From the IMG/VR virus record IMGVR_UViG_3300047318_000379, positions 1 through 47,211 of that record: a stretch of DNA of 47,211 nt; one strand, written 5' to 3'. Below, piece by piece: positions 1-32,332 of this stretch. The translations under genes were made by a program, and so were the position numbers. Numbering within the stretch: position 1 is the first letter of the stretch; every line of letters starts with the position of its first letter. The DNA is from a virus. Under the pieces are notes generated by a model. It did not search any database. It saw nothing but the letters and a program-made list of their open reading frames with translations, and was not told the DNA's origin.

Positions 1-1421
1 AAATACCCAGTTTCACCAGGTTCTATAATTTCTACGTACCTAATCAGATTACGGGCAATAATTTCAAAGTGTCTAGGATCAAGACCACCTCCGTAGATTC
101 CACGTAACTCTTCCGAAAGATATTTACGACCAGCGCCTAACCCACGAAGCTTAACGAGTTTACGGGGATTAATAACTCCTGTAGATAATCTATCACCTTG
201 TTGGATCGTATCACCTTCTGCTACAACAACTTTTTGATCAATAGGTACGAAGTGTTTTACTTCGTTAACGAATACATTATGGTCACCCAGGGGAGTTGTA
301 ATAACTTTACTAACTTTACCGTTAAGATTCGAGATAGTCGCTTCATCTTTAAAGTTCTCTGCAGGGTTGCGCATAAGGTTAGAAGCTTGTTCATAGGCAT
401 TACCTTTACGTTCACCAACCGTTGCCTTGTGCTTAGTTGATAACATAGCTTGGGTCAGAACTTCTGATACAGATTGAGCAGCGATAACTCCAACGTTCTC
501 CCCAATGATAGGCATCTTACCATTAGCCATAAGGCCGTAGCACTTTTTACAAACACCTTCATGAGCTTCACAAGTCATAGAGCTACGAATCTTGACATTT
601 TCTTTACCACTCATTTTTAAATCTGCGTAGTAAGCTTCACTTATCAAGCTATTAGTAACAGACTCGAATCTACCAATGATAGCCTTACTATCAGTGATTG
701 GTTTCATGATACCATTCTTTGTACCACAATCATCCATGGTGATAGTTTCATGGAACACGGTTGGGGATAGTCGTTTGAACAAAGCTCCAGGAAGAGCCGT
801 AGAGAGCTGCGCCATAACAGTAGAGCCTCGGCCCATGTAACTCATTGCCAAGTGCTCTGCAGGGCTCATACCTTCTGCAAAAGAGTGTTTGATAACGATA
901 GGAACCAGCTCACCCTTTAAGTTAGCGGACATGAGAGGAGTACTCGTACCTACGGCAAGTTGCTTTGGATTACCACGAGCTCCGGTGTTAGCCATCTTAG
1001 CAGCCATACTCCCTCTTGAGAGCAAGTACTTAAGATTTTGGTCTTCGATTCTTGTATTGTATTTAGAAGTCAAATCAACCAAATCACTATTAATTTGATT
1101 CTTGTTTTTGCCAGCATCTTTGATTTGCTGAACTTTGGTCGCAAACTCCTTGATGATAGCCTGTCGTTCATCCGAGGTATTTTCGTAGTCCATCAATGGA
1201 GTACTTGCACCAATCTCAGTTGCTTTGTTAAAAAACAGTTGACCAAGACTATTGATATGTTCGTGAGCGTTTTCTCCTCCATGCTCTAACAGCATATTGA
1301 CGAGATTACTCATACCCTTTTTATCAATAGTTTTATGAAGGTCAAAACGTTTTTTTGACTCATCTGTTGGCATAGAATGCTTTAGCAGTAGTGCCCCTGC
1401 GGTAGTTAGTTGATTGGTCAT
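1..1421 (-). CDS. rpoC: RNA polymerase beta' subunit, C-terminal piece (partial at window edge)
   Basis: Catalytic large-subunit fragment of a phage-encoded multisubunit RNA polymerase. Translation from the ATG at 1421 opens with TTAGALLLKHSMP, which lines up with bacterial beta' just after the active-site half. It then shows a GARGNPKQ segment, a bridge-helix region (SYMGRGSTVMAQLSTALPG), DDCGT followed by TCEAHEGVCKKCYG (the four cysteines of the second zinc site), and VGVIAAQS leading into the trigger loop (TQAMLSTKH). The trigger-loop His is kept, but the residues bacteria have as M-R-T-F read L-S-T-K. The reading frame is still open at base 1. There is no Shine-Dalgarno. A TTAAAATAG motif lies only a few bases before the ATG, so the message may be leaderless. 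It complements the middle piece at 10167-11339 and the N-terminal piece fused to beta at 23160-26573. Confidence 0.95.
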   Translation of the reverse strand, partial: MTNQLTTAGALLLKHSMPTDESKKRFDLHKTIDKKGMSNLVNMLLEHGGENAHEHINSLGQLFFNKATEIGASTPLMDYENTSDERQAIIKEFATKVQQIKDAGKNKNQINSDLVDLTSKYNTRIEDQNLKYLLSRGSMAAKMANTGARGNPKQLAVGTSTPLMSANLKGELVPIVIKHSFAEGMSPAEHLAMSYMGRGSTVMAQLSTALPGALFKRLSPTVFHETITMDDCGTKNGIMKPITDSKAIIGRFESVTNSLISEAYYADLKMSGKENVKIRSSMTCEAHEGVCKKCYGLMANGKMPIIGENVGVIAAQSVSEVLTQAMLSTKHKATVGERKGNAYEQASNLMRNPAENFKDEATISNLNGKVSKVITTPLGDHNVFVNEVKHFVPIDQKVVVAEGDTIQQGDRLSTGVINPRKLVKLRGLGAGRKYLSEELRGIYGGGLDPRHFEIIARNLIRYVEIIEPGETGY

Positions 1422-2073: not shown

Positions 2074-3342
2074 ATGTTAAACGAAAAACTAATATTGGCA
2101 GGTAAAGTCTTAAGCCCGATAACGCATGATAAGTATCGTAACAACTATAATAATTACCGCACCCTCATAGCTAAAGCCTTAAGAATAGGTCAAAGGGATA
2201 TTAAAGTCGAAGCTCTGATGCCAGGAACTACAGTGGAGTTCCTTACTTTTTATCTACACAGGGATTATCTTACTAGTAGTTTTATTACCTATCTTGAGAA
2301 TGGGTTTGGAAAAACTAATGTAATAGAAGATAAGACTGAAAATACAATCTATATTGCGTATGATAGCTGTCAACTAAATTTAGTATTGGTAGACAAAGAT
2401 TTTACTGCTCTAGAGAATTTTGTCTTCTACCATTCGTTTGGAAAGATGGGAGAAGTATTAGGCGCTATTGCTAAAAGAATGGGAATGAAATATACTGATG
2501 GAGGTTTATTCCTTCCAGTCTATCTTCAGGGTAAGCATTTGACTGACGTAAGTATTACTTCTAATTGGTATGAGTTAGTTGGGATATTAGGATTGCCCTA
2601 TTTGTATATGGATTCTGCTAACAACTTGGATTTGAACGTTTTTTGGAATTCTATCTCTCGTTCAAGGTATTTCTCAAAAGATGCTTTTCCAGTAACTCCA
2701 GAAGGTGAAGTAAGTACTTCCCCATTACTGGATTTCATAAAGCAAAAAGTTGCTACACTAAATCCAGCAGATATGTATGTGTACTCCACTGGTAAAACGC
2801 CTTGGTTAGCGGGTATTAAGAAATCATATCCTACAGTTCTAGATAGAGTTAGAACAGTTATTAGAGAGTCAATTAGGACCGATGCTTTACAAAATAAATT
2901 ACCTGACAGCTTGATCTCAGAAGCTTCTGGAGTAACAGAGGTATCAAGGGTACTTGCTCTGCGAAATAAAATTAAGTCATCATTTGTAAGCATAAACTCA
3001 TATGAAGACTTTATCTTAAGTAGTTCTTTTGATACAATTAAGAACAAGATTATTAGTGAAGCACAAGTGAGTTCCGGTGATCAAGTAAATACGATACCTA
3101 AGTTAGAAGTAAAAAATCGTAAACCTAAAAGGTTGGGTGACTTTAAACTGCCTCACGACGTTAAGGATTACCAGATGGTAAAGCTTGGAGGATTTTTAGT
3201 TAAAGTACTTGGTATATCTAAAGCTAATAATCGAGCAGAAGTTGTGGTTCAAGGTTGTGATGTAGACGAGTACGCTTATCTAATAAATGGACACTACACA
3301 TTCATTCCTTTAGAAGATCCTCCTTCAGTGCAATCTAAATAA
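2074..3342 (+). CDS. Possible nucleotidyltransferase-fold phage protein (422 aa)
   Basis: Function uncertain. Residues about 45-150 resemble a nucleotidyltransferase-like family of large viruses: an MPGTTVEF start, a strand pattern QLNLVLV, then FYHSFGKMGEVLGAIAKRMG and KYTDGGL, where relatives read S-x-x-x-x-G-x-L-I-G-R-I-A-x-K-M-G and K-Y-G-x-x-G-L. Relatives usually have Asp where this protein has Asn in QLNL, so catalysis may be altered. The remainder is not recognised and the C-terminal 60 residues look like a small beta domain. AAGGA precedes the ATG. Flanked by the variant promoter at 1994 and a strong terminator at 3355, so it is transcribed apart from the repair operon that follows. 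Confidence 0.6.
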   Translation: MLNEKLILAGKVLSPITHDKYRNNYNNYRTLIAKALRIGQRDIKVEALMPGTTVEFLTFYLHRDYLTSSFITYLENGFGKTNVIEDKTENTIYIAYDSCQLNLVLVDKDFTALENFVFYHSFGKMGEVLGAIAKRMGMKYTDGGLFLPVYLQGKHLTDVSITSNWYELVGILGLPYLYMDSANNLDLNVFWNSISRSRYFSKDAFPVTPEGEVSTSPLLDFIKQKVATLNPADMYVYSTGKTPWLAGIKKSYPTVLDRVRTVIRESIRTDALQNKLPDSLISEASGVTEVSRVLALRNKIKSSFVSINSYEDFILSSSFDTIKNKIISEAQVSSGDQVNTIPKLEVKNRKPKRLGDFKLPHDVKDYQMVKLGGFLVKVLGISKANNRAEVVVQGCDVDEYAYLINGHYTFIPLEDPPSVQSK

Positions 3343-3354
3343 AAGACTGAAGTC

Positions 3355-3383
3355 AAAGACAAGTTTATAGCTTGTCTTTTTTT
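3355..3383 (+). terminator. Rho-independent terminator
   Basis: Perfect 9-bp stem AAAGACAAG / CTTGTCTTT with a 7-base loop, ending in a run of eight T, just after the stop at 3342. Confidence 0.85.
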
Positions 3384-3413: not shown

Positions 3414-4412
3414 ATGCCACTTTCTCATAACCAACAAATTTTATTAACCCGCCAACGCCACGAAGCTGAGCGTATGGGGTTGCACTGGGACTATCGTATA
3501 GTCGTTGGTGGCAAAGCGTATTCTTGGGCAACTAAAAAAGAAATGCCTGAACCGGGCAAAGCCATTATTTTACATGAGCAACCCATCCATACTTCTCATT
3601 ATGCTCTAAGTCCTAAAGTGATCATCCCTTCAGGTCAGTATGGTGCAGGTGTTACAACTTTGGATTGGGTACGTAAAGGTAAAGTTGTTAACCAAGAAGA
3701 GAGCGTTGATAAATTTGTTGTCGAAACTACTGAAGGCGATAGATTCTTATTTAAAAGAACTCCCCAATATTCAAATAAAGCTTGGTTGTTTAAGAATCTT
3801 AAGAAACCTGACGCTATAGAGAAGAAAGCGGAAGATGGGCGTATATGGTTATACCATGGTAGCACTCCCGCTAGAATTGAAGCCATTCTTAAAAACGGTC
3901 TAGATCCTAAACTTCAAGGATCGAGGATGGGTGCACCCGACTTGCTAAATAATGAAAAAGTAATGTCTCTTACTGCAAATAAGGATGTTGCAAAAATCTA
4001 TTCTTCTCCAGATTCTATTATCAAACTAGTATTAGGTGGAAAAAGTCCAGAGCCTCTTCTAGTCAGAGTTAACACTGGAAATAGATTAAAAGAGGTGACT
4101 CCAGATTGGGATCACAACGAATGGCACTACAATGATAAGGTTTCTATTAAGGACATCCTAACAAGTGATATGCCTGAATATAGAAAAATTGAAGAAAACA
4201 AATACGTAGAAAAAGTAGCTGCTAGGATTGAAGGTTTCTGTGACACTCCTGGGGCTATTTACCATAGTAAATTTAAGGGTAATAACGTAGGTATGAGTGT
4301 GACTCTACCAAGTCATGTTGTAATACCGAAGCATGCTATGGAAGGCATAGAGTTGGAAATGCACGATGCCATAGAAAAGATACTCGGAAAATATTTTAAA
4401 AAGAAAAACTAA
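3414..4412 (+). CDS. LigD-type 3'-phosphoesterase domain fused to ADP-ribosyltransferase-like domain
   Basis: Residues 1-125 match the 3'-phosphoesterase domain of bacterial ligase D, which trims 3'-phosphate or ribonucleotide ends before sealing. Visible are RHEAERMGLHWDYR (H16, H24, D26, R28 in the metal/phosphate-binding pattern H-x-H-x-D-x-R), SWATKKEMPEPG and IIPSGQYGAG. Residues about 140-240 (IWLYHGSTPARIEAILKNGL, then MSLTANKDVAKIYSS) look like an ADP-ribosyltransferase or RNA 2'-phosphotransferase-type fold. At residues 262-269 an internal NKYVEKVA repeats the peptide that begins the downstream proteins, followed by a 63-residue tail. No Shine-Dalgarno. The stop overlaps the next ATG (TAATG), so it is coupled to the helicase. 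The PE assignment is strong, the ART one moderate. Confidence 0.8.
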   Translation: MPLSHNQQILLTRQRHEAERMGLHWDYRIVVGGKAYSWATKKEMPEPGKAIILHEQPIHTSHYALSPKVIIPSGQYGAGVTTLDWVRKGKVVNQEESVDKFVVETTEGDRFLFKRTPQYSNKAWLFKNLKKPDAIEKKAEDGRIWLYHGSTPARIEAILKNGLDPKLQGSRMGAPDLLNNEKVMSLTANKDVAKIYSSPDSIIKLVLGGKSPEPLLVRVNTGNRLKEVTPDWDHNEWHYNDKVSIKDILTSDMPEYRKIEENKYVEKVAARIEGFCDTPGAIYHSKFKGNNVGMSVTLPSHVVIPKHAMEGIELEMHDAIEKILGKYFKKKN

Positions 4413-6535
4413 TGGCACTTAATGATAAATATACAATGAGGGAACACCAGCTTCACGCCGTAGAAACAGCGGTGAAGCGTAATGGTAATATCATCCTCTC
4501 ACACCCGGTAGGGTCTGGTAAGACTGGCTCCTCTATTGCTGTATTTGAGAAACTAAAACTAGATGGTTTAGCAAACCGTGCACTAGTTGTGACACCCGCA
4601 TCACTACGTACTAACTATGGGGAGAATGGGGTAAAGAAATTTACCGACTCTGATTATCGTGTGTATGGTAATAAACAAGAGGTTTCATCGGACCAGACTG
4701 GATTATTTTGTGAGCCAAAAAGCGAAGGCCCAGAATACGGTTTGGTAAGTTATGAGATGTTCAGGGAAGATCCTGAGAAATACATCAAAGGGCATAACGC
4801 TGATACCGTTATTTTTGATGAAGTACATCGTATTAAGAATGATGAGAGTAAAACCTTTAAAGCATTAAAGGATTCTCGTGGCATGTTCCGCAATTTTATT
4901 GCGATGACAGGATCTATCACATCAAATACTCCGGCTGACGTTGTTCCTCTTATAGATGCAATGACTGCTGGCAATCACCAACTTGGTTCTAAAGCATCCT
5001 TCGAGAATCGTTTCGTTAAAAAAGATGCTAAAGGTAAGATTGAAGTTATCAATCCTATCCTTGTTCGTTCGCTTATCGCTCCTTATGTTCATAACGTTAC
5101 CGAAGAGCAGCTTGAAGAAGGCACGGGTATAAAACGTCCAGATAAGTACGTCCATGAAATTAACATCCCATTATCAGGTCAGCATGAAGAATACTACAGA
5201 TATGTTATCAAACAACTTGATCCTATTACTAAAGCCAAATTATCACATGGCTTAGGAAAACTAGGTAAGGCTGAACTTGACCAGATCTTCTCTAAAATGC
5301 TTAAAGCTCGTCAAGTAGCAAACTCTATGCACATGTTAGACACTAACATGACTTTAGAAGAATCCGCAGAGAAATCCGTAAAGATAAAACGTTTATTGGA
5401 TGATGTCGAAGAGCATTTAAATACTGTGCCCGATGCACAAGTCGTAGTTCATTCCGAGCTAATACAAGGTGGTCTTGACGTTCTTCAAGCTGGTCTTAAG
5501 AAGCGTGGTATAGAATATGGACTATTCATTGGTAAAGGTAACAAAGGTGTTACTGAGAAAAGCCGTCAACAAGACGTAGATGACTACAATGCTGGTAAAA
5601 AGAAAGTTCTTCTTATCTCTGCTGCTGGAGGCGAAGGTCTGGACTTGCCTAATACTACTTTAGTGGCATCGCTGGATGGACATTGGAATCCAGAGAAAAT
5701 TAATCAAGTAGAAGCTCGTGGTATTCGTATGGGAGGTCTTTCCCACCGTCCTGAATCAGAACGTAAGGTTATCGTTAACCGTTATATTACTAAGCTTCCG
5801 GTATCGAATATAGATACAATGAGAAACACTAAAAATCTCCTGTCCCCCACAGAATTTGCTATGCGTATTTTTAAAGGGGAGAAGGCGTTTTTTAATCCAC
5901 ATAAAGCAATGCCAACCGTAGACCAACTTATGTACGCCGTAGCTAAAAGCAAAGCCCAAGGTAATGAACAACTAAAAGGTTTGTTTGAAAAAACCTCTGC
6001 TTATAGTTTTAACAGTGACAGAAATATTCTCAATTCGTATTTAGACCGTTTCCAAGATAAACTTCTTACAGGAGATTACCAAGATAAATGGATAGACGAA
6101 GCAGAAGAAAATCGTTATATCAATCGTCTAAAAAGGTATTACGCAAGTGCCAATAGGAAGGGAGTCGTTGCAGTTACTCCTAAGGATTATGATAAGTATA
6201 AAGACCGTACTAGACAGTCTCAGGCCCTTAGAAATTTCGGCATGGGTATGGGTCTTGGAGCGGGCATTGGTGGTTTATACGGAACAGCTTATACAACTAA
6301 GCTTTTAGGATTTAAAAAGGCATTGAAACTAGGAGCGGGAGTAGGGACTATTGCAGGAGCAATAACAGGAGGTGTAATGGCTAGAAACGGTGATAAGCCC
6401 CATGTTACTACCACTGCAGCAATAGCTAAGAAACGTCTAAAACTAGAAGATGACAATCTACTTAAAATATTACGCGGTGAAGCAGTTAAAGAAGAACAGA
6501 CTAAAGTAACCGAACATTATATTAAGTTGAAATAA
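4412..6535 (+). CDS. SNF2-type superfamily 2 helicase/translocase with C-terminal glycine-zipper segment
   Basis: A 707-aa ATPase expected to move along or remodel DNA. Seen are the Q-like region REHQLHAVE, Walker A HPVGSGKT (K37), DEVH box (D136), an SF2 motif III AMTGS, and a C-terminal RecA lobe with SAAGGEGLDLP and the arginine-finger region QVEARGIRMGG (about residue 431). The unusual part is the tail, about residues 606-660, rich in Gly/Ala (GMGMGLGAGIGGLYG and KLGAGVGTIAGAITGGVMA). It looks like one or two membrane-inserting glycine zippers, as in the tagged proteins next door. Overlaps its neighbour upstream by one base and is followed one base later by the tagged gene at 6537. Role in DNA repair is inferred from operon context. 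Confidence 0.85.
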   Translation: MALNDKYTMREHQLHAVETAVKRNGNIILSHPVGSGKTGSSIAVFEKLKLDGLANRALVVTPASLRTNYGENGVKKFTDSDYRVYGNKQEVSSDQTGLFCEPKSEGPEYGLVSYEMFREDPEKYIKGHNADTVIFDEVHRIKNDESKTFKALKDSRGMFRNFIAMTGSITSNTPADVVPLIDAMTAGNHQLGSKASFENRFVKKDAKGKIEVINPILVRSLIAPYVHNVTEEQLEEGTGIKRPDKYVHEINIPLSGQHEEYYRYVIKQLDPITKAKLSHGLGKLGKAELDQIFSKMLKARQVANSMHMLDTNMTLEESAEKSVKIKRLLDDVEEHLNTVPDAQVVVHSELIQGGLDVLQAGLKKRGIEYGLFIGKGNKGVTEKSRQQDVDDYNAGKKKVLLISAAGGEGLDLPNTTLVASLDGHWNPEKINQVEARGIRMGGLSHRPESERKVIVNRYITKLPVSNIDTMRNTKNLLSPTEFAMRIFKGEKAFFNPHKAMPTVDQLMYAVAKSKAQGNEQLKGLFEKTSAYSFNSDRNILNSYLDRFQDKLLTGDYQDKWIDEAEENRYINRLKRYYASANRKGVVAVTPKDYDKYKDRTRQSQALRNFGMGMGLGAGIGGLYGTAYTTKLLGFKKALKLGAGVGTIAGAITGGVMARNGDKPHVTTTAAIAKKRLKLEDDNLLKILRGEAVKEEQTKVTEHYIKLK

Positions 6536-6536
6536 C

Positions 6537-7508
6537 ATGAATAAATATCTAGAAAAAATAGCCAGAGAGTATACTCAGCAAGAAAATGTGGAGACTGGTG
6601 CAGGGGATAAAATTGGTCTAGGGATTACTTCTGCAGTAAGTGCAGGAATAGTCTCTAAAAAAATTGCTCCTTTCGTTGCGAAACCTGTATCTGCTTTTAT
6701 AAGTAAGGGTACCCCTCGTATTCCAACAGATGCTTTAGACGCAATTACAGATAAAGTACTATCTGCTACTAATTCTACAATGAATCCTTTTGAATTAAGT
6801 AAGCATATGCCTTCAAATCTTTTGATAGGAGCAGCTGGTCAAATGAAGCCCGGAGTGTATACACCAGATGAAATGAATAAAATTAGATGGACAGCAGATA
6901 AGGCTGAAAAACTTAAAGATATCTTCATGGGAGCTCCAGCTCGTTTAGTAGGAATCAACCTACCTAAATATACTGGAGCACTTTCAAGTAGAGAGCCTTT
7001 CATTAAAAATTATATTGCTGACAGCAGACCAATCTCATTAGCAGCTATTGCTGGTGACTTCCTTGGTCAACTTGGAGGTCAACCTGTTAAAAGCACCGTA
7101 AATACTGATTCCTTAGCTCAACATCTAGGTCATGCAACTGACCTTTCTAAAGGAGCTACTAAGCTTAAAAGCAGATTAGGTCTTATTTCTAAAACTATGA
7201 TGACCCCTGCTGCTGTAGTTGCAGGAGGAATGCTTGCAAGTGAAAAAACTAGGGATTACGCTTGGGCAGTTCCTGTGGTAACGGCAGTTCCTGGTATTAG
7301 AAATGAATTGGCATCAAGTATAAATGCTATGAAACTTTTAAAGGGACAGGGCGTTAGTAGAAAAGCAGTCATTCCTATTGCAGCTGCTAATTTGTTAAAA
7401 AGTTTGATTAAACCTGGTTTGACTTCTGGCACTATAGCTGGTATTAATCATCTAAGGGAAAAAGGGGAAGAAGTTAACCCAGAAGAATGGTTAGTGGATA
7501 GAGGATAA
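6537..7508 (+). CDS. Tagged glycine/alanine-rich protein, candidate internal virion protein (323 aa)
   Basis: Starts with MNKYLEKIAREY, the short peptide shared with three following genes. The body is not recognised. It has Gly/Ala-rich hydrophobic stretches (about residues 24-59 and 222-240) and no catalytic motif I can identify. The shared N-terminus resembles the capsid-targeting sequence of T4 internal proteins (pattern M-x-x-Y-x-E-x-I-A). An A-R-E tripeptide right after it would fit the A-x-E type of sites cut by prohead proteases in some large phages. Its stop overlaps the next start (ATAATG). Confidence 0.8.
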   Translation: MNKYLEKIAREYTQQENVETGAGDKIGLGITSAVSAGIVSKKIAPFVAKPVSAFISKGTPRIPTDALDAITDKVLSATNSTMNPFELSKHMPSNLLIGAAGQMKPGVYTPDEMNKIRWTADKAEKLKDIFMGAPARLVGINLPKYTGALSSREPFIKNYIADSRPISLAAIAGDFLGQLGGQPVKSTVNTDSLAQHLGHATDLSKGATKLKSRLGLISKTMMTPAAVVAGGMLASEKTRDYAWAVPVVTAVPGIRNELASSINAMKLLKGQGVSRKAVIPIAAANLLKSLIKPGLTSGTIAGINHLREKGEEVNPEEWLVDRG

Positions 7509-8164
7509 TGAATAAATATTTAGAAAAAATTGCCAAAGCATACTCTGGTGAAAAAGTGGAAATAGAACCAGGCGTATACTACCATTTAGATAAGCATGAA
7601 CTGAAACCTACTACCGCTCATATGGCAGAGTATATGGATAAAAGGGATACTCGTAGTCGATTAGGGGTTGGAGCCGTGTACGGGGCAGTCGGAGGCTTTA
7701 TGGGTGCAGCTATGGGAGATGGCTACCATGGAACACGTCTTCGTCAAGAGGCTCCCCTAACAACTACGAACTATTCTAAGTTTGGTATAGCTGACCTTGA
7801 ATGGGAAAATACTAGACCCGTTCCGGACTTTAATACTAATAGTAGAGATCCGATAGGAGACTATAACCGGAAACTTAGAGATTGGCGGGATAGGCAACCA
7901 CAATGGCACGACTTTACTGAAACTCGACCTTCAGAATTCAAACCAAGATTAACTAACTTAGTTAATAAGTATGGTCATACTCCTACGAAGCGCATCACAA
8001 CTGGATTAGGTGGAGTTGCTGGTGCTTTAGTCATGGGTGGACTTGGCTATGCGGTAGGAGGATTACTTCCGGAAGAAAGACCTATAATTAAAAACCAATA
8101 CTTAGAGAAGTTAGAAAATAGGCACGAACATCATATTAACGAATTAGAGGGCTGGAATGACTAA
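7508..8164 (+). CDS. Tagged protein with two glycine-zipper segments (218 aa)
   Basis: Begins MNKYLEKIAKAYSGE. Two Gly-rich hydrophobic segments (GVGAVYGAVGGFMGAAMG near residues 50-68 and GLGGVAGALVMGGLGYAVGG near 165-186) flank a polar, Trp-containing middle of about 95 residues. Such segments are typical of membrane-inserting or pore-forming phage ejection proteins, but no named family is recognised. It overlaps the gene upstream by one base and the one downstream by eight. Confidence 0.78.
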   Translation: MNKYLEKIAKAYSGEKVEIEPGVYYHLDKHELKPTTAHMAEYMDKRDTRSRLGVGAVYGAVGGFMGAAMGDGYHGTRLRQEAPLTTTNYSKFGIADLEWENTRPVPDFNTNSRDPIGDYNRKLRDWRDRQPQWHDFTETRPSEFKPRLTNLVNKYGHTPTKRITTGLGGVAGALVMGGLGYAVGGLLPEERPIIKNQYLEKLENRHEHHINELEGWND

Positions 8165-8435
8165 TAAGTATCTAGAAAAGATCGCCCTCTTTAGACCTAA
8201 ACGTCAACCTTTAACCAAATTCAAAAAAGAAGAGTTCCAAGGCCGTTTTACAGAAATGTTTGACAAGGCTGTAAAGGGTAGAAAACTGAATGCTGAGAAG
8301 GTTAAGAACTATCGTTGGAAGAACAGCATTGGCATGGTTAATAAAGAAGGTTTACTAAGTAGGCTCTTGGTTCCAAGCAAAGCTAATCCGGGCAAACATC
8401 TGGAACTGAAACATCCAGACTATAAGAAGAAATGA
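8157..8435 (+). CDS. Small very basic tagged protein (92 aa)
   Basis: Starts MTNKYLEKIALF, with one residue inserted before the common peptide. The rest is strongly basic (many Lys/Arg, few acids) and probably binds DNA or packs with it, as small basic internal proteins of other phages do. No domain recognised. It overlaps both neighbours (8 and 4 bases), so it is translated as part of the same operon. Confidence 0.75.
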   Translation: MTNKYLEKIALFRPKRQPLTKFKKEEFQGRFTEMFDKAVKGRKLNAEKVKNYRWKNSIGMVNKEGLLSRLLVPSKANPGKHLELKHPDYKKK

Positions 8436-8917
8436 ACAAATACCTAACGAAGATAGCACAACAACTTAAGGAAGAGGCTCACCCCTCTTCTCTAGGTATT
8501 GACCTTGATAAAGGAACGGACCCTGAACTACACAAATGGCTCATAGCAGTCACCTTATTTTCTAAGCCAATTCAGCGTAGTGTTGCTGCTCGTACTTCTA
8601 TGCAGTTATCTTCGGAAGGTATTGATAGCCCGGAAGCTATTGGTAAAGCTGGCTATTCAAATCTATTAGAATCTCTACAGAGGGGTCACTATTCTCGCTA
8701 TGATGAGAGCACTGCTAAAACCCTTCTTATACAAGCCAAACAGCTGCATGACCAGTATGGATCTATCTCTGATTTCGTAGCCCGAAGAACACCGGAAGAG
8801 ATACGAAAAGAAATCATAAACCTAAGAGGTATTGGTCCTATGGGTAGTAAACTTTTCGTAGAAGGACTTGAGCCACATTTACAAAAGTTTCAAAAACCAG
8901 TCGAACATCCTGTATAA
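8432..8917 (+). CDS. Endonuclease III-like HhH DNA repair protein with N-terminal tag (161 aa)
   Basis: Tag MNKYLTKIA, then an all-helical domain (residues about 25-150) with the layout of the HhH-GPD/endonuclease III superfamily: LHKWLIAVTLFSKPIQRSVAA near the start and the helix-hairpin-helix LRGIGPMGSKLFVEG near residues 136-151. Family members remove damaged bases or act as AP lyases. I do not see the C-terminal Fe-S cysteines of canonical endonuclease III, and catalytic Lys/Asp residues cannot be placed with confidence. It sits just before a DNA ligase, consistent with excision repair. Confidence 0.7.
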   Translation: MNKYLTKIAQQLKEEAHPSSLGIDLDKGTDPELHKWLIAVTLFSKPIQRSVAARTSMQLSSEGIDSPEAIGKAGYSNLLESLQRGHYSRYDESTAKTLLIQAKQLHDQYGSISDFVARRTPEEIRKEIINLRGIGPMGSKLFVEGLEPHLQKFQKPVEHPV

Positions 8918-8944
8918 TAGAAGATTACGAAAGATATTTACTAA

Positions 8945-9829
8945 ATGTTCGCACGCCAACCTTATAAAGAACAAGAAGACTGGACGACTCTTAAAGATCC
9001 AGTAGCCACTGTTAAATATGATGGAGCTCACTATTTTTTAGCTGTTAAAGATGACGGGGCTTTAACTTTCCATTCCAGACGACCTAGTGTTAAAGGAGGC
9101 TTCCCTGAAAGAACCGAAAAGCTTCCGCACCTTACTACTAAAAAATTCCCAGAGCTTTCGGGTAATGTGTATTCAGTAGAGTTAATTCACACAGGTCATA
9201 AAAAGGAAAATAAAGAATCTCATCCAGCAGTGAGTGGACTTCTCAATTCTTTAGCTCCAAAATCAATCGCTGACCAAAAAGAAAAAGGCCCTATCAGGGC
9301 TGTTCTGATTGATGTTATAAACCCACCTTTACCTACGTATAAAGATAAGCTCTTACATATGAAAGATGTGGAGAAGAAGATTGGCAAACCAGATTTAGTC
9401 TTTGTTCCTGAACCAGCCATTACAAAAGAAGCTATCGTAAAACTTATTACTAAAACCAAAGTTCATGGTCACGAAGGAGTTATTATTACTTCTTTAACTA
9501 CCCCTGAAGCAACGAATCCCCGTATCAAAATTAAACATAAAAATACGTATAACCTTCGAGTAACAAAGATTCAGCAAGAGATAGATATGCACGGCAAACC
9601 TAAAGAACAGGCAGGAGCTTTAATTGTAGAAGATGCTATTGGAAGAGAAGTGGCTTCAGTAGGTACGGGTCTTAGCAGAGAATTAAAACAAGAAATCTGG
9701 AAAAACAAAGGTGACTGGATTGGTCGCTTGATCCAAGTGGAGACTATGGGTACCGTCAAAGAAAAGGGTAGACTTAGAGCGCCTGTCTATAATGGAGATG
9801 CAGATGGGGACATTGATTTAGTAGAGTAG
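8945..9829 (+). CDS. ATP-dependent DNA ligase (294 aa)
   Basis: Seals nicks through a covalent lysyl-AMP. Motif I is KYDG (K24). Further motifs are HSRRP, VYSVELIHTG (motif III), EGVIITS (motif IV) and KIKHK (motif V). An OB-fold-like tail follows from about residue 205 (GALIVEDAIGREVASVG). It is short, like viral minimal ligases. There is no clear Shine-Dalgarno. Together with the separately encoded LigD-type phosphoesterase at 3414, the operon supplies two of ligase D's activities in trans. A promoter motif begins one base after the stop. Confidence 0.9.
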   Translation: MFARQPYKEQEDWTTLKDPVATVKYDGAHYFLAVKDDGALTFHSRRPSVKGGFPERTEKLPHLTTKKFPELSGNVYSVELIHTGHKKENKESHPAVSGLLNSLAPKSIADQKEKGPIRAVLIDVINPPLPTYKDKLLHMKDVEKKIGKPDLVFVPEPAITKEAIVKLITKTKVHGHEGVIITSLTTPEATNPRIKIKHKNTYNLRVTKIQQEIDMHGKPKEQAGALIVEDAIGREVASVGTGLSRELKQEIWKNKGDWIGRLIQVETMGTVKEKGRLRAPVYNGDADGDIDLVE

Positions 9830-10135: not shown

Positions 10136-10162
10136 AAAGCCCGGTTTCATCCGGGCTTTTTT
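10136..10162. terminator. Bidirectional Rho-independent terminator
   Basis: Perfect 9-bp stem AAAGCCCGG / CCGGGCTTT with a 6-base loop. Six T follow on the plus strand and A-rich sequence precedes, so it can serve both the plus gene ending at 10124 and the minus operon ending at 10167. Confidence 0.9.
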
Positions 10163-10166
10163 AGTT

Positions 10167-11339
10167 TTATCCTTTGATTCTTATCGGAGTATTCTCTTTG
10201 ATCCTACCTTCTTTCAAAGCTTTCAGAGCATCAAGTTCAGTGTCAAATTCCACGGTCTTTTGAGCTTCATCCGGTTCTGTCATATATACCGATCCGATAA
10301 TAGCTTCATGTCCAGGAGCAACCATAGAATTACCTAAACCTCTACGGTAGTCATGGATATGGTGTTCTGGTAGAAGTTTCTTTTTAGCTTCCTCAACTGC
10401 TTCAGGTGTCATTGGCACTTGTATAGTCAGAGCATCTCCATCGTAGTCACCAGCGTATAAAGGAAGGTGCAATGGATTCAATCCAATAGTCTTACCCTTA
10501 ATAGGAACAGCAAAGTGAGCAGTAACGTTAGTCCTCATCAGCGTAGGTGCTCGGTTAAGTATGATAGGAACCTGCTTAATCAATTTACTAAGAGAAGCTT
10601 GTGCAGCTGGGTTTCTGGACTCTACGGCATTTTTAGCAGAAACATAGTCAAAGCCTTGTTTAGTTAAATCACGAAGTAAGTGGAACTGAAAAGTTGTCCA
10701 CAGCATATCTTCGGGAATAGCAGCTTCGTTAAAACCAAGATTAGGCTCTGCGTAAATGGTTCCACGACCAGAGAAGTCTTGTTTCTTACTTAGGAGTTTT
10801 GAGTGGAACAATCCACCCTTCGGACCTGAAGTACCGCTAATTTGCTTTATATAGCCCTTCAAGCTTTTCCCACGACTTGCGCCACTGATTGCATCACCTA
10901 GACCGAAAACAGCCTTAGCGCCTGCGTAGAGGTCTCTACGGGCATCCATGAGCTGGTTGTTAGGATATATATCTTTGTTGTACTTAAGAGGCTCATTTAC
11001 AAGCATGTGATCTCTATACAACATATTTACATCGGCGTAAGTAATGTTGTTATTACCTTCAACCATTGTAGGTCTAGTCAAAGGCGGAGCCACTGGTATA
11101 TTTCGTAAAATATACGCTTGCTGTGGTTTAAGCTCCGACTTACGAAGTCCTTCTAGATACTTAAGCTTTTTTACTAAGTCATCTTTTTTACTAGGACTCT
11201 TAGTTGTTTTAATTTCTTGCTTAATACCTTCGAATTGTTTATTAATGTCTACTTTACCAAGTAACATCTCAAAGGCAGGACCGCCTGCAATAAGAAGGTT
11301 TGTATCAGCATCTGGTTTTTGAGTCGTTGGTTTTGCCAT
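10167..11339 (-). CDS. rpoC: RNA polymerase beta' subunit, middle (active-site) piece
   Basis: A 390-aa polypeptide equal to roughly E. coli beta' residues 170-560. After a short leader it reads GGPAFEMLLGKVDINKQ, then RNIPVAPPLTRP, KGGLFHSKLLSKKQDFSGR (RNAP lid/rudder area), ILNRAPTL and the catalytic loop YAGDYDGDALTIQVP. The three Mg-binding Asp are kept, while the Asn before them in bacterial NADFDGD is Ala and the Ala is Gly. It ends at the position of bacterial VRITE, here IRIKG. There is no clamp N-terminus; that part is fused to beta. Last gene of the minus-strand late block, two bases after the papain-like gene and just before a terminator. Confidence 0.96.
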   Translation of the reverse strand: MAKPTTQKPDADTNLLIAGGPAFEMLLGKVDINKQFEGIKQEIKTTKSPSKKDDLVKKLKYLEGLRKSELKPQQAYILRNIPVAPPLTRPTMVEGNNNITYADVNMLYRDHMLVNEPLKYNKDIYPNNQLMDARRDLYAGAKAVFGLGDAISGASRGKSLKGYIKQISGTSGPKGGLFHSKLLSKKQDFSGRGTIYAEPNLGFNEAAIPEDMLWTTFQFHLLRDLTKQGFDYVSAKNAVESRNPAAQASLSKLIKQVPIILNRAPTLMRTNVTAHFAVPIKGKTIGLNPLHLPLYAGDYDGDALTIQVPMTPEAVEEAKKKLLPEHHIHDYRRGLGNSMVAPGHEAIIGSVYMTEPDEAQKTVEFDTELDALKALKEGRIKENTPIRIKG

Positions 11340-22659: not shown

Positions 22660-23160
22660 TTAACTGTAATTTAAAGAAACTCTATTATCCCATATATTGA
22701 CGAAATTTGCATTACCATTAGCCCACTCTTCAGTAATGTCCCCATCGTTTCCGACGATTACTCTTCTTATTCTCCAAAGTGGTAATGAGTTAGCAGTGCC
22801 TACAGCTGCTTCTGCTTTATAAAGTAAATTGTCATTTACAAAATCTACTCTTGTTGAATACACTTCATCTTCTCCTGCTTGAGGTCCAGTTGGCCCTATT
22901 CCACCTTGAGGTCCTACAGGCCCCGCAGACCCTTGAGGCCCAGGACTTGCTTGGACATATACATCTTTTACATAGGTATTTACTGTAACCTTTGCTATAT
23001 TGGAATGTTGGTTTATTCCAATTCTAGACTGTCTAGGTAATACTACATTATTAATTTTAACTGTTGAAGCAGAGATAGTAGCATGTGAAGTTTTAGATCT
23101 AGGAGTTAATCCCACTGTCGGATTACTTCCTACTAATCTATCAGGGTTTCTATTTGCCAT
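22660..23160 (-). CDS. Collagen-like tail protein (166 aa)
   Basis: Contains Gly-X-Y repeats (GPQGSAGPVGPQGGIGPTG) around residues 95-113, flanked by an N-terminal part starting MANRNPDRLVG that resembles the start of the 115-aa collagen-like protein (MTNRNPNRFD). The shared N-terminus may be an attachment point. Its ATG overlaps the beta stop codon (ATGA). Confidence 0.8.
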   Translation of the reverse strand: MANRNPDRLVGSNPTVGLTPRSKTSHATISASTVKINNVVLPRQSRIGINQHSNIAKVTVNTYVKDVYVQASPGPQGSAGPVGPQGGIGPTGPQAGEDEVYSTRVDFVNDNLLYKAEAAVGTANSLPLWRIRRVIVGNDGDITEEWANGNANFVNIWDNRVSLNYS

Positions 23161-26100
23161 CAGATTTCTTCTTCGTGCTCTATCTCTTCTGGAGTATCAT
23201 CTTCTACTAGTTCATTAGCATGAACGTTTATAGTCTTAACATGCTTCCCAGTAGTAGTATCATGTAAATGAAATATTCCCTCTTTTTCGTGAATTATTCC
23301 AAGTGCTCCATGAGCCAGGTCTTCAAACTCCTTAGTCTTCAAACCAAGTAGCGATTTAACTGGACGCTCAAACACTGGATTAACAATGGATTCAGCTAAT
23401 TTATAGTGAGTCCATTTATTACCACGAATTCCTCCGGTAAGAGCTGCATCAAATAAACCACCTCTTTCTGGCTCTAAGTTTTTAGTACTCAGCATCAAAG
23501 GCTCTTTGATCTGACCATTACTCATTGCAATAATATCATGGTCGGTCATTGGACTAGCCGTAATATGGCCGTTCTCAATCGTTGTCTTTACACCAGAAGC
23601 ATTCAGATAATCAAAGAACTTCTTAGTTGCAAAAGTCATCTTCGGTTTAGGTAAAGGCTGACCTGTAGCAAACTTACTCCAAAACTCAGAATTCTCTTCG
23701 CTCTTAAGCGTTGCAATTTCTTTCAAATTCTTACGAGCATCTGAACCCATAAGACCAAGCATCTCCATGTAGCCAACGCTCTTCGATCCTTCTTCTCCAC
23801 CCTTAGTAGGTTGCAGAGTATTATCGTATCCGCCAACAGAACGTGCAGAGTAGTTCTGATCACTAGTCTTGTACAGCTTAATAAAGTACTGAGGACCAGT
23901 TAATACTTTTCCTAAATCTTTTCCAGTCTTAGGATCGACAAACATCTCACTGTCTTCAATACCATGATGAGCAAGTTCCTTATGTAATTCCCCAATGTTC
24001 GAACTCTTAGAGAAGTTATGAATAAGGTAAGGCTTGCCAGTTTTCTCAGCAATTTTACCCGCTACAGTTTCCATCAATTGACCAAGGTTAATACGAGAAG
24101 TAACAGAAGCTGGGTTCAACACAATATCTGCTGGCTTACCTGATTCTTTGTTAAAAGGCATTTCATTGTCGTTAAGAATAAGCGACACAATACCTTTGTT
24201 TCCATGGAAACCAGTAAGTTTATCTCCGACTTCAAGATGCTTTATAGAGCGCATAAGAATACGAATAGCCTTGCCTTCAGTATGCGCATCAACTACAACT
24301 CCCGGTTCATCATGGGTCCATGCTTCACTAACAGGGCGATATGGTAAAACTAATGTCTTATGCAAACGACCCAACATTTTATCTTCAGGAGTAGGTTCAC
24401 GTTTTTCCAAAACAATATAGATAGGATCCCCGTGAAGGAACTCTGCACCAAGTCTAGGGAATCCTTGGTCATCTAGTTTTGCCAATTGTTCCTTAGTATA
24501 CTTACCAGGAAAATATCTGCTGATAAGAGATTTTTTAAGAACACTAGTTGGTTGCACATCATAATCAATCTTATACGCATGATGACTAGACAATCCATCT
24601 GCACAACTTTTAGAAATGACTAGTCCATCCTCGTGATTGTATCCCTTGTATGGCATATACGCCACAGTAAGGTTTTTGCCCAAAGATAGTATGCCGTGCT
24701 TGGTGTAGTTATTATCTACAAGTACTTGATTTTCTTTAACCTTCTGTCCAACTTTTACTAAAGGAGCTTCATCATCGTAAAAACCCTTCATGTTAAAAGG
24801 AAGATTTTTTACTAAGGTAATTACATGAATCTTACCTTCTTTGTCCTTGACTGTAACTTTTTCAGAAGAGATGGATTCCACAACACCATCAACAGGGGAA
24901 ATGGACGAAGATACAGTTTGTGCTAAAGAAGTCACAAAAGGTTTGCCTGCATGATCTACCGTTTGTACTAAAGGTACTTCTCTATGAACTAATGACAACG
25001 CTTGAGGAATAGCTTTACCAGCCATAGTCAAACGGCCTGGGTGATTAGAATTCAGGAATGGTACGAGGTTAGTTGTAACAGTATAGATATCGGTAGTATC
25101 CGCCAACCAGTAGTCCACCTTCTTAACGTCAGTATCTCCAAGCACACCCTTGATTTGAGCCTGTACTTTAGTCTTTCCCTGTTGATGCGGAAATCCAATA
25201 GTAGAGTTCATCATCTCATGAACAGACAGAAAATGCTCTTTACCTTGATTGTCGAGAACACGAGTATACAGATTACCTTCTTTGTCACGACGAGCACTAA
25301 TAGTAAAACGTTGGTCAATACCAGCGTGTCCTGATTCAGGAGTACGACTAGGATCAATGATACCTAAGTGAGACGGATCGATATCTCTAGCAGTCATAGG
25401 GACGCCTCGGTCACTGCCGATACCTCCTTCAAGCCCGCCGAGTACAGTTACTTTACCTACATTCTCTAGCGATTCAATAGGATTCGTTTCAGTAGGTGTA
25501 GTGACTAAGTTTGAATCTACGATATAACTGGTGAAGAGCTTATTAAAAGGCTTTGCTACGATAGTATTTCGGATTTTGATCGGGTCACCAGATTTCTCCG
25601 CTTTATCAATAGCATAGCTAATACGATTCTTAAGGGTAGAAGTTAACAGCTTTTCTTTTTTGAAACGTGTTTCTAAGAAGTCTGGTAAGTTCTGTACTGC
25701 TTTAAATTGCAAACTGTCTCGGTTATCTTCTTCACGTTTTCCAGCGTGAACGTCTACTAAGTTTCTCAGGGCTAAAAGAATAGCCTCATGAGTTACTGAT
25801 GAGATAGGCTTACCTAGAGTAACCTTGGTCGTAGAAACATTCAGCTGTGAGTTTTCCAGAGATTGTCTAAGAGCGAGAATCTTGTCCTCCTCTCCTGCTG
25901 CAGGATCTTTCTTAAAGACAAGTTTTTGGTAAAGATCGTTAACAACTTTAGCTTCTTTACCTGCACTGGCTTTGAGGTTATCGTTCCAAACTTCTAATGG
26001 AATATAGTTAGAAACTTCTCTTGGGCCAATTCCAAATACACGGCTTAACACAGGGGCTAAGAGAATGCGTGAGCTTTTAACTTCTAAATAGAAAAGACCG

Positions 26101-26573
26101 GTCTGAGGTTCCAGAGTTACTGAAAAGCTGCTACCAGTACCAGTGTTAAAGTGAGTCTCTAACTCTCCAGTATCTTTTGAACGAGTGTAGGCTCCAGGAC
26201 GTAACTGGAGCTGATTAGCTACGGCGTAGTTGGAACCTTTATACAGTAAAGTATGTTTACCGGAAATGTAAAACGAATCCATTAAAGAAAAGTTCTTCTG
26301 GACATCCATTATATTACCGGTTTCTTTTTCAGTAAGAGTAAGAGTTCCACGAATAGGATACGTCAAACTCTTGTTCTGTAAGATAGCGTCTTTCTCATCA
26401 GCGGCAGTGTAGTTCTTACGATCCACTTGAATATCGGAAACTGACAGTACATATTTTTTAGTTTCTAGTGGAAACTGAGAATAAATACCCGCAATGAGAC
26501 TCGCATCAACGTTATCGTTAATGATTTTTGGGGATGTAAAAATTCGTTGAAGTTCTTCTTTTTGCTTAGGCAT
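23160..26573 (-). CDS. rpoB: RNA polymerase beta subunit fused to N-terminal part of beta' (1137 aa)
   Basis: Residues 1 to about 1000 are a complete beta subunit: MPYKGYNHEDGLVIS (catalytic Glu-Asp pair), LEVGDKLTGFHGNKGIVS (both active-site Lys), DIVLNPASVTSRINLGQ, and the C-terminal KSVGYMEMLGLMG...TLKSEEN. A normal beta would stop soon after. Here the protein continues (from about residue 1004, base 23564) with ITASPMTDHDIIAMSNGQIK, PERGGLF at residues 1035-1041 and WTHYKLAESIVNPVFERPVK. These align with the beta' N-terminus (L-A-S-P...G-E-V-K-K-P...K-P-E-R-D-G-L-F...M-G-H-I-E-L-A). The zinc-binding domain normally between the last two is absent. An acidic tail closes it. AGGA precedes the ATG. 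Confidence 0.96.
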   Translation of the reverse strand: MPKQKEELQRIFTSPKIINDNVDASLIAGIYSQFPLETKKYVLSVSDIQVDRKNYTAADEKDAILQNKSLTYPIRGTLTLTEKETGNIMDVQKNFSLMDSFYISGKHTLLYKGSNYAVANQLQLRPGAYTRSKDTGELETHFNTGTGSSFSVTLEPQTGLFYLEVKSSRILLAPVLSRVFGIGPREVSNYIPLEVWNDNLKASAGKEAKVVNDLYQKLVFKKDPAAGEEDKILALRQSLENSQLNVSTTKVTLGKPISSVTHEAILLALRNLVDVHAGKREEDNRDSLQFKAVQNLPDFLETRFKKEKLLTSTLKNRISYAIDKAEKSGDPIKIRNTIVAKPFNKLFTSYIVDSNLVTTPTETNPIESLENVGKVTVLGGLEGGIGSDRGVPMTARDIDPSHLGIIDPSRTPESGHAGIDQRFTISARRDKEGNLYTRVLDNQGKEHFLSVHEMMNSTIGFPHQQGKTKVQAQIKGVLGDTDVKKVDYWLADTTDIYTVTTNLVPFLNSNHPGRLTMAGKAIPQALSLVHREVPLVQTVDHAGKPFVTSLAQTVSSSISPVDGVVESISSEKVTVKDKEGKIHVITLVKNLPFNMKGFYDDEAPLVKVGQKVKENQVLVDNNYTKHGILSLGKNLTVAYMPYKGYNHEDGLVISKSCADGLSSHHAYKIDYDVQPTSVLKKSLISRYFPGKYTKEQLAKLDDQGFPRLGAEFLHGDPIYIVLEKREPTPEDKMLGRLHKTLVLPYRPVSEAWTHDEPGVVVDAHTEGKAIRILMRSIKHLEVGDKLTGFHGNKGIVSLILNDNEMPFNKESGKPADIVLNPASVTSRINLGQLMETVAGKIAEKTGKPYLIHNFSKSSNIGELHKELAHHGIEDSEMFVDPKTGKDLGKVLTGPQYFIKLYKTSDQNYSARSVGGYDNTLQPTKGGEEGSKSVGYMEMLGLMGSDARKNLKEIATLKSEENSEFWSKFATGQPLPKPKMTFATKKFFDYLNASGVKTTIENGHITASPMTDHDIIAMSNGQIKEPLMLSTKNLEPERGGLFDAALTGGIRGNKWTHYKLAESIVNPVFERPVKSLLGLKTKEFEDLAHGALGIIHEKEGIFHLHDTTTGKHVKTINVHANELVEDDTPEEIEHEEEI

Positions 26574-26941: not shown

Positions 26942-28750
26942 TTATTCCGATTTCTTTTGTGGTTTGTTTTCAGATTTAGGTTTATCAGAAGAGGCTTGCG
27001 CCCCTCCTTCAGGTTTACCTCCGGGTCCTCCAGGTTCAGCTCCGTTTGTCCCTTCCTCTCCAGGCATACCTTGAGCAGCTTGGTTTTCTTGGAAGTTAGC
27101 AACTAGAGTAGAAACAAGAACATACATTGGATAGTCAGTTACTTCTAACTGTCCAAGTACTGTTACCTGTGTCATAGGATCTGCTTGGTACAATTGTTGT
27201 GCCACTGCTTGAGCCTTAGCCAATGCATTTCTATAGTCGTTGTCTTTATCGAAGCGATCCACAACTTCCTTACTTGCCAAGAACACAGCTTGCTCTACGG
27301 CAAATTTAGTCTCTACATCTTTGACAGCTTTAGAAATAGCATCTTTCTGAACAGATTCTAGAACTTTGTTGTAGTCCATACCGAAAGACTCATATAGGTC
27401 ACTAGGAGCAGCGCCACCAGTTTGAACCAAATTCAGAAGAGCCTGACGTAAGTTATCATCATCAGTAAGTTTGAACGGAACAAGAGTAATATCGCAAGTT
27501 TCGATACCGATGTATTTGGATACGTGTAGCATAACCCAATTCACAAGAGCCATCATCTGGTCTGTATATGTGGTCATAGTGTTTTGCAGTAGGCGTAAAC
27601 CAACCGTAGAACTCTGCCAGTTAGTAACACCGGTTAACAATTCACGAGAAACACCTAAGCTCAGAAGAATTGATTCCTCTGCTTGTTGAATTTCTTGAGA
27701 TACTAATAGATTTTTACCTTCACCACTAACTGCTTGATACCCAATCGGCATAGGCGCAATTAATACATGATTCTTGTCACGACGATGTTTAGCCAGAGCT
27801 TCAGTCATATTACCTACAAAGCTTCTCATACTAATAGCAACCACTGGATCACTATTAGCAGTTTGAGCTTGAGGAAATACTACTCGTAATGGATTCATGT
27901 GATCCGTACTAATAGCTTCATTAGCTTTACGAAGAGTAGCCTGATAATAAACCAACGGGAATAACGAAATCAAAGGAGGTACTGCAATACCATTAATAGA
28001 ATGGCCAGCACTTACATTCTTTAAATGGAAGATATGATTTTCATCAAACTTAAAATCTTGGTTATTTTTAACGGCCTCAATAAGTCCCCAAGGTACACTA
28101 TTCACAAACAGCTTATCTCCCTGTTGTACTCTACGTTTAATATCGTTAGGAATTTTATAGTAGTATTCGTTTTCACCAGTGATCGGGTTGTTGTTAACCA
28201 CGATATGAGTAGGATCCCATTTGACCAAATTCATATCCGCTACATTCATAGATTTAGTGTCAGTACGTTTAAACTCACCACTGAATTTACAAGCTGGACA
28301 GGTTCCATGGAAGCCGAATTTCTTGAAGGAAATAAACGATGCTTTTTTAGCAGTATAAACTGTGGAACACGCTGGACAAATCAATGAACGAATGATTGGA
28401 AAGTAAATAGATATAAATACATTACCGATAGTATAGTATTCAAATCCAATATCATATAGTTGTTGTTTAAGTTTGAAACTCTTAAAGACTTCTTTATAAC
28501 GTTCTTTAACTCGTTCACTTTTCGTATCAACGATAAAGTCAGTAATAGGATAAGTAGATAGTTTACGGATAACCTCAGTTGTGACTGGGCTCTGCATCGT
28601 AATATACCTAGCCCAACGAATAACGTCATGAAGGTTGCGAGGCAGGAACTGATTAGATACAGTAAAAAATGGGTTTGTATTTGGAGCATAACTTCCGCCC
28701 CCTGGCATACCCCCGGCACCGGGCATTAATGGTGGATTGATATCATTCAT
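26942..28750 (-). CDS. Portal protein with inserted zinc ribbon (602 aa)
   Basis: Forms the dodecameric DNA channel at the head vertex. Portal-like features: early helix NLHDVIRWARYITMQSP, VTTEVIRKLSTYPITDFIVD, a central NEAISTDHMNPLRVVFPQ, then QEIQQAEESILLSLGVSRELL and LRLLQNTMTTYTDQ as in large-phage portals, with a long helical, Gly/Pro-rich tail. Unusual: CPAC at residues 125-128 and CPAC at 151-154, spaced 22, a zinc-ribbon pattern. First gene of the 18-kb minus-strand late block, preceded by a TTAAAATAG motif. No strong Shine-Dalgarno. Confidence 0.82.
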   Translation of the reverse strand: MNDINPPLMPGAGGMPGGGSYAPNTNPFFTVSNQFLPRNLHDVIRWARYITMQSPVTTEVIRKLSTYPITDFIVDTKSERVKERYKEVFKSFKLKQQLYDIGFEYYTIGNVFISIYFPIIRSLICPACSTVYTAKKASFISFKKFGFHGTCPACKFSGEFKRTDTKSMNVADMNLVKWDPTHIVVNNNPITGENEYYYKIPNDIKRRVQQGDKLFVNSVPWGLIEAVKNNQDFKFDENHIFHLKNVSAGHSINGIAVPPLISLFPLVYYQATLRKANEAISTDHMNPLRVVFPQAQTANSDPVVAISMRSFVGNMTEALAKHRRDKNHVLIAPMPIGYQAVSGEGKNLLVSQEIQQAEESILLSLGVSRELLTGVTNWQSSTVGLRLLQNTMTTYTDQMMALVNWVMLHVSKYIGIETCDITLVPFKLTDDDNLRQALLNLVQTGGAAPSDLYESFGMDYNKVLESVQKDAISKAVKDVETKFAVEQAVFLASKEVVDRFDKDNDYRNALAKAQAVAQQLYQADPMTQVTVLGQLEVTDYPMYVLVSTLVANFQENQAAQGMPGEEGTNGAEPGGPGGKPEGGAQASSDKPKSENKPQKKSE

Positions 28751-32060: not shown

Positions 32061-32332
32061 AAGGTTACGCCTATCTAGATATAGATGGTAAGGTTGTTTA
32101 TAAGCCACAAGACTATATCGAAGAAGTTAATCCAGCCTTCTTCTCTCAAAATTCTAATTTCATAGTACGTAAGTGGAAGTTTGATACTGAAAGCTACTCT
32201 TCAATGGAAACTATGTTAGCAGCATTTGCAGATTTGAATTTGAGTCCTTCTGCTGTGCACAATTTTTTACAGAGTATAGACTTTTCCCGAGAACACTTTA
32301 AAAAACTAAAAGAAGATGTTAATAAAGTTTAA
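32057..32332 (+). CDS. Unknown small protein (91 aa)
   Basis: Not recognised. ATGA-coupled to the gene before and overlapping the helicase start by 17 bases, so probably translated with it. It could be a helicase partner by position only. Confidence 0.65.
   Translation: MKGYAYLDIDGKVVYKPQDYIEEVNPAFFSQNSNFIVRKWKFDTESYSSMETMLAAFADLNLSPSAVHNFLQSIDFSREHFKKLKEDVNKV

Follow-up and report, generated by a model that had tools for sequence, protein, structure and literature searches.

LigD proteins of bacteria and archaea, in which a polymerase, a phosphoesterase and a ligase domain follow one another (POL-PE-LIG), and the standalone phosphoesterases (PEs) of archaea heal 3'-ends, which are then sealed. 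The internal proteins of phage T4 and the Dar proteins of P1 have a short N-terminal signal or propeptide in common with head proteins, a variable cargo and an expected co-ejection, and both targeting sequences and the processing of propeptides have precedents in T4 and SPN3US (PMC3012670, PMC10052503). Here, we analyzed the virus record IMGVR_UViG_3300047318_000379 (a 47 kb stretch of 47,211 nucleotides, called the window throughout), which belongs to a tailed phage whose multisubunit RNA polymerase (RNAP) is split, and focused on an operon at 3414-9829 predicted to encode a PE, a SNF2 ATPase, an ATP-dependent ligase and several small proteins that begin with the peptide MNKYLEKIA, referred to as the tag.

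Compared with LigD, the PE of this operon has the same fold and active site, and where PE and ligase are fused in relatives, their PE-LIG order is colinear with residues ~324-740 of PRK09632. Unlike LigD, the phage system has neither POL nor Ku, carries PE and LIG mostly on separate chains, has a SNF2 partner and shows a head motif between modules. Unlike the T4 internal proteins and P1 Dar, it uses the motif phi-x-K-x-A/S and its cargo includes conserved DNA-repair enzymes, for which packaging and cleavage are proposed here. Our best reading is that the system would work like a LigD that has no Ku and is spread over several chains, with head-cargo signals added, and we hold it rather probable that the operon provides a kit for healing DNA breaks, at least part of which is packed in the head and enters the cell with the genome.

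Phosphoesterase, ligase and SNF2 genes

The first gene of the operon (3414..4412, + strand, from the list of open reading frames, ORFs) encodes a PE-ART-X polyprotein of 332 aa, in which a LigD-type PE (residues 1-129) is followed by IEKKA at 135, an ART-like stretch (~145-262), KYVEKVA at 263 and a C-terminal piece of ~63 residues. The PE domain matches Pfam LigD_N with 3.6e-7, slightly below the family cut-off, and its closest solved structures are the archaeal and Pseudomonas LigD PEs. The AlphaFold2 model of PE-ART has a pLDDT of ~97 over residues 1-129, with a confidence ending sharply at 129, and Foldseek with the PE model returned LigD PEs as the top seven PDB folds (including 3p43 and 3n9b). 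Moreover, the active-site residues Q14, H16, H24, D26, R28, S37, H59 and Y63 are kept in 16/16 homologues and correspond, in the same order, to Q40, H42, H48, D50, R52, S61, H84 and Y88 of Pseudomonas aeruginosa LigD, in which their roles have been described (PMC8656161). By the active-site residues of its superfamily and by its predicted fold, the window PE domain is thus a LigD-type phosphoesterase. Three different PE queries detected no such PE in 50,697 phage records, none turned up among predicted viral structures, and a targeted search of the open literature found no description of one in phages.

The ART-like stretch is another matter, as it matches the PARP profile with a sub-threshold E of 0.03 and was not resolved in the AlphaFold2 model. 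A similar stretch lies behind the PE of the relative L039 (KptA/PARP, E 0.01-0.03; 29% identity to that of the window over 70 aa). A KptA/Tpt1 identity was tried and found unsupported in the window, and the ART segment alone, used as query in viral contigs, found no close relatives.

The last gene (8945..9829, +) encodes a minimal protein made of a nucleotidyltransferase and an OB domain, untagged in the window. It matches phrog_114 (1.2e-24) and DNA_ligase_OB_2 (1.8e-4), and motifs I, III, IV and V (K24-x-D26-G27, E79, E177-G178 and K195) are invariant in 19/19 sequences, which, together with the OB domain, identifies it by sequence as an ATP-dependent DNA ligase. As a query on its own in viral contigs, the ligase found no close relatives. 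The second gene (4412..6535, +, ORF list) encodes a protein of 707 aa that can be assigned to the SNF2 superfamily-2 ATPases by its intact Walker A (GSGKT34), DExH (DEVH136) and motif VI (Q432xxxRxxR), with Pfam matches to SNF2-rel_dom (7e-18) and Helicase_C (4e-11). Its core (1-~475) is followed by the motif FEKTS at 525 and by a glycine-zipper-like C-terminal region (~600-660) with weak Gly-zipper matches. Among the gene identities proposed by the first-pass annotation of the window, those of PE, SNF2 and ATP ligase held, whereas the ART is sub-threshold and outside the conserved core.

We then considered how these genes are arranged in relatives. Thirty-nine viral loci were fetched with the PE and ligase queries, several of them copies of one contig or near-identical strains, and the core comparison was made on the 14 separate contigs with the most similar sequences, window included. 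Results showed that in all 14 the ligase gene comes after that of the PE, no more than 4.6 kb away and on the same strand, while ~1.6 would be expected by chance; chance clustering was rejected accordingly (14/14 within 5 kb). Wide scattering of the genes in relatives, which the first-pass annotation had named as the finding that would speak against it, was looked for, and PE and ligase showed none. A SNF2 of the same family lies within ~6 kb of the PE in 10 of the 14 contigs; in two others (L018, L039) it is farther away on the contig, and on L016 and L019, both probably fragments, it was not found. PE and ligase, on separate chains in the window, are fused in six contig groups of more distant relatives (L006, L020, L023, L026, L028/L029, L031), PE and SNF2 are fused in L007/L008 and L012, and SNF2, PE and ligase share one ORF, a 1271-aa protein, in L021. 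The intact PE and ligase motifs, the 14/14 linkage and the fusions all agree with the proposal of LigD-like end healing and sealing split over chains.

The remaining domains of LigD and its partner were also searched for. Ku (PF02735) was found in none of 18 records, many of them fragments, while the control was detected in B. subtilis, and the LigD polymerase (TIGR02778, AEP) gave no match above cut-off in the same 18, with three sub-threshold local matches. The check for a Ku-like gene that had been suggested thus leaves Ku-dependent end joining unsupported; because both Ku and POL were looked for and not found, we do not file the system as LigD or as non-homologous end joining (NHEJ), and NHEJ proper was rejected. 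A capsid protein homologous to gp226 of the Salmonella phage Arash (32-58% identity) was present in 17/17 PE-bearing records tested, which places the module in one phage lineage, and its carriers form a group of phages that are large and for the most part uncultured.

Some relatives also had features of their own at this locus. In L021 (8225-12040), the ORF that holds SNF2-PE-LIG continues with a metallopeptidase-like HEMGH motif and with Gly-rich hydrophobic segments. In L022 (9911-11237), a long ORF that spans the matches to both PE and ligase stays open only under code 4, with TGA coding for an amino acid, which suggests a TGA-recoded relative. In L003 (10389-11084), a PhoH-like ATPase, recognized by eye, lies between PE and SNF2.

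A peptide common to head proteins and operon products

The tag opens four window proteins, one of which has Thr in place of Glu and another an extra Thr, and variants of it lie inside others, namely KYVEKVA in PE-ART and the looser IEKKA (PE/ART border) and FEKTS (SNF2). As synonymous positions vary among these four tags, a recent DNA duplication as their origin was rejected. Across the lineage, the motif can be written phi-x-K-x-[AS], typically [LM]-[EVT]-K-[QE]-A followed by S. We counted it in the head-assembly proteins, defined as the homologues of Arash gp220-gp223 plus the capsid protein, and found 266 motifs against 45.8+-6.4 in shuffles (5.8-fold), while tail proteins, with 18 against 12.5+-3.5, were near background. 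The motif was found at about residue 25 of the major capsid protein in 12/12 relatives inspected, and scaffold-like proteins hold many repeats of it. The same was true of Arash, whose virion proteins (at least 5 unique peptides in the published mass spectrometry; PMC10585845) have 50 motifs against 22.3+-4.2 in shuffles, compared with 8 against 12.2+-2.8 for its other proteins.

In the operon, the motif lies 7-20 residues past the last conserved PE residue in 13/14 proteins, and the N-terminal tag opens 17 of the 39 genes lying after the PE and up to the ligase, but 7 of 292 elsewhere (Fisher 9e-13). It also opens most SNF2s of relatives. Taken together, these sequences point to a short signal common to the head-assembly proteins, comparable to the capsid-targeting sequence of T4, and its distribution is as expected of a head maturation protease site, at which cleavage may take place. 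Within this set, gp222 is putatively the protease and gp223 the scaffold, as judged from gene order and motif content and not from a family match.

A relative of the SNF2 has in fact been detected in virions. The best Arash match of the window SNF2 is gp217 (29%, 1e-40), to which the SNF2s of relatives are 37-42% identical. In virions of Arash, a cultured relative, gp217 was found with 38 unique peptides and 1148 spectra, to be compared with 30 peptides and 1333 spectra for the capsid protein and 40 peptides and 1210 spectra for RNAP beta' (PMC10585845), and is therefore among the most abundant virion proteins. The Arash genome has no detectable PE; thus, the gp217 data show that the SNF2 family is virion-borne and do not extend to the PE. 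The link of the operon to tagged virion-like proteins, proposed from the window alone, is borne out insofar as the tag has been connected with head-assembly proteins, and the SNF2 family with virions.

The modules found behind the PE and its tag vary, being ART-like (window, L039), EncFtn/rubrerythrin-like (L010, L014, L019), the t92 module described below (L016), SNF2 (L007, L012) or, by eye only, a ParB-like stretch (L002), so that, much as among the T4 internal proteins, the cargo changes and the signal stays the same. The ferritin-like domains stand directly behind the head tag of the PE protein (L010 9989-10690, L014 9989-10759, L019 9980-11023) and are EncFtn-like (PF22277, ~1e-6) or rubrerythrin-like.

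Possible roles of the operon

If the operon is a break-healing kit travelling at least partly in the head, the PE would remove a 3'-phosphate or terminal ribonucleotides, restoring 3'-OH ends, the minimal ATP ligase would close the nick after this healing, and the SNF2 motor would travel along or clear the DNA, reaching ends or nicks. The peptide phi-[E/T]-K-x-A/S (MNKYLEKIA) would be the head signal that brings proteins into the prohead core, the head maturation protease would probably cut the tag, as happens to the capsid-targeting sequence in T4, and equivalent sites within PE-ART-X would free its modules. The purpose would be the repair of nicks and end damage in the packaged genome or inflicted on entry. 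We infer the packaging of PE and ligase, their proteolytic release, their activity and this purpose from the data above. Packaging of the kit would open genome repair on entry to direct tests, and the peptide would then give a sequence rule to predict the proteins loaded into the heads of this lineage.

Several points weigh against this explanation. Virion proteomics covers Arash and none of the PE-bearing phages and, since Arash has gp217 with no detectable PE, the SNF2 has a PE-independent role. The DNA ligase (gp177) and UDG (gp168) of Arash were detected by mass spectrometry with no more than 2-3 unique peptides, which could reflect contamination (PMC10585845). The ligase is untagged in 11 of the 14 contigs (tagged in L012, L018 and L039 only), so that it may be produced after infection rather than head-loaded, and the window SNF2 is without the N-terminal tag carried by most of its relatives. 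The weak parts of the operon are the sub-threshold ART, which in the window lies outside the conserved core, and the HhH protein described below, which is not conserved and lacks the catalytic residues in the window. Finally, cleavage at the motif is something that we infer, and the motif classes were picked after viewing the sequences, making the statistics somewhat optimistic, although the contrast between head and tail is still very large.

We weighed these points against other explanations. The SNF2 could be a RapA-like partner of the virion RNAP, involved in its recycling or DNA loading and not in repair, with PE and ligase as replication or repair genes placed in the RNAP cluster by coincidence. 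A role of this kind has been suggested for the SWI2/SNF2 that group 1 jumbo phages encode in linkage with their RNAP (PMC7824862), and here too the gene is found beside RNAP beta' and its product is virion-associated in Arash, where gp217 comes directly after beta' (gp216) and both are virion-abundant. Moreover, the module is placed between two beta' genes in the window and in the 168 kb relative L007, and the SNF2 is far from the PE in G010 and G012. However, unlike the jumbo-phage SWI2/SNF2, the one described here is linked and fused to PE and ligase, and RNAP recycling predicts no fusions such as those of SNF2 to PE in two contig groups (L007/L008, L012) and to PE-LIG in L021, leaving this an unlikely explanation. 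Still less likely would be a repair or replication module made after entry and acting only in the infected cell, with the tag as another signal, for example to a chaperone or a compartment. The mostly untagged ligase would fit, as would the fact that large phages commonly encode an ATP ligase (PMC7824862), but the motif is common to the major capsid, scaffold-like and protease-like head proteins, a SNF2 relative is found in virions and the unit holds further tagged proteins.

A set of injected counter-defence proteins, resembling P1 Dar or the T4 internal proteins, in which the ART-like, HhH and PE cargo targets host defence and not damage as such, is somewhat unlikely. The cargo behind the PE does differ among relatives (ART-like, ferritin-like, t92, ParB-like), and the T4 internal proteins are a diverse set with only the targeting sequence in common (PMC3012670); yet, the conserved part of the operon is a chain of DNA healing and sealing enzymes and not of variable inhibitors, and this reading merges with the break-healing kit if the latter repairs nicks made by host nucleases. 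We regard it as very unlikely that the kit joins the ends of the phage's own genome after entry, circularizing it: a ligase with 3'-end healing would suit end joining, but the same 18 records hold no Ku and no over-threshold LigD polymerase, and blunt ends are expected to be poor substrates for a minimal ligase.

Returning to the break-healing kit, we put forward tentatively, as a broader proposal that we hold somewhat less than probable, that the short processing or targeting peptide is a general cargo code of an HK97-fold head, delivering a Ku-independent PE-SNF2-ligase repair machine together with swappable cargo such as ferritin-like domains. Encapsulin loading of EncFtn likewise combines a HK97-fold shell with a short cargo peptide, and the EncFtn/rubrerythrin-like domains stand behind the tag in L010, L014 and L019; unlike an encapsulin, the shell here is a true DNA-filled phage head and the putative cargo peptide is N-terminal or internal. 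If true, it would be the first case of a viral LigD-type phosphoesterase and also of an end-healing and sealing kit brought in by the virion.

Small tagged proteins and genome setting

The seven genes of the operon are co-directional (+), and their junctions overlap or leave 1 nt, except for 27 nt before the ligase. The operon is therefore a real unit, compact and mostly overlapping as the first-pass annotation had claimed, and is flanked by terminator-like hairpins, one upstream (3355..3379, +, an 11-pair stem then a T run, by consensus match only) and one closing the unit (10136..10159, bidirectional, whose 9-pair stem has T runs on either strand, by consensus scan only). Promoter-like sites were no more frequent than in shuffles.

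Between the SNF2 and ligase genes lie those of four tagged proteins. The cargo protein t323 (6537..7508, +, MNKYLEKIA start), to which no function is assigned, has homologues in L012 and L007. The next, t218 (7508..8164, +, MNKYLEKIA start), has glycine-rich hydrophobic segments and a weak homologue in L010. Glycine-zipper-like hydrophobic segments are found at 6200-6500 (the C-terminal part of SNF2) and 7640-8100 (t218), and could possibly be membrane-inserting parts for ejection. The tagged t92 (8157..8435, +) shares its module with L016, being 59% identical to the C-terminal part of the L016 PE protein, where the module is fused behind the PE.

The fourth (8432..8917, +, MNKYLTKIA start) is a putative member of the HhH-GPD superfamily. 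It has no direct family or profile match, but is 28-32% identical to the bacterial chromosomal proteins L082-L084, of which L083 matches TIGR03252 (1.6e-5) and HhH-GPD (8e-4), bridging the window protein to the superfamily. At the positions that we take, from general knowledge of EndoIII, to be the catalytic Lys and Asp, the window copy has GIGPMG instead of GxGxK and PHLQ where the bacterial proteins have PHMD, after which it is truncated. Since neither residue is kept, the protein does not appear to be a DNA glycosylase, and is more likely to have a binding role than to excise bases. Its AlphaFold2 model (pLDDT 48) was too poor for use. The protein, used alone as query in viral contigs, found no close relatives and is absent from the conserved set of the relatives; the base removal attributed to it was therefore not upheld, and base-excision repair was rejected as core function. 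The bacterial proteins (L082 2983-3411, L083 2893-3543, L084 2821-3519) form a small HhH-GPD-related family with a GHYSRYDE motif, on Pseudomonas and Prescottella chromosomes.

Outside the operon, the beta' pieces (3..1421 and 10167..11339), beta (23160..26573) and the portal (26942..28750) are ~45-53% identical to their Arash counterparts. A second SNF2-type helicase (32316-34058) is the counterpart of Arash gp198 (41%), which is absent from the Arash virion list. Just 5' of the operon, a 422-aa gene (2074-3342) has a weak match to phrog_24943 (DNA polymerase, E 0.0019), and a 27% homologue of this gene is also found directly upstream of the PE in L016.

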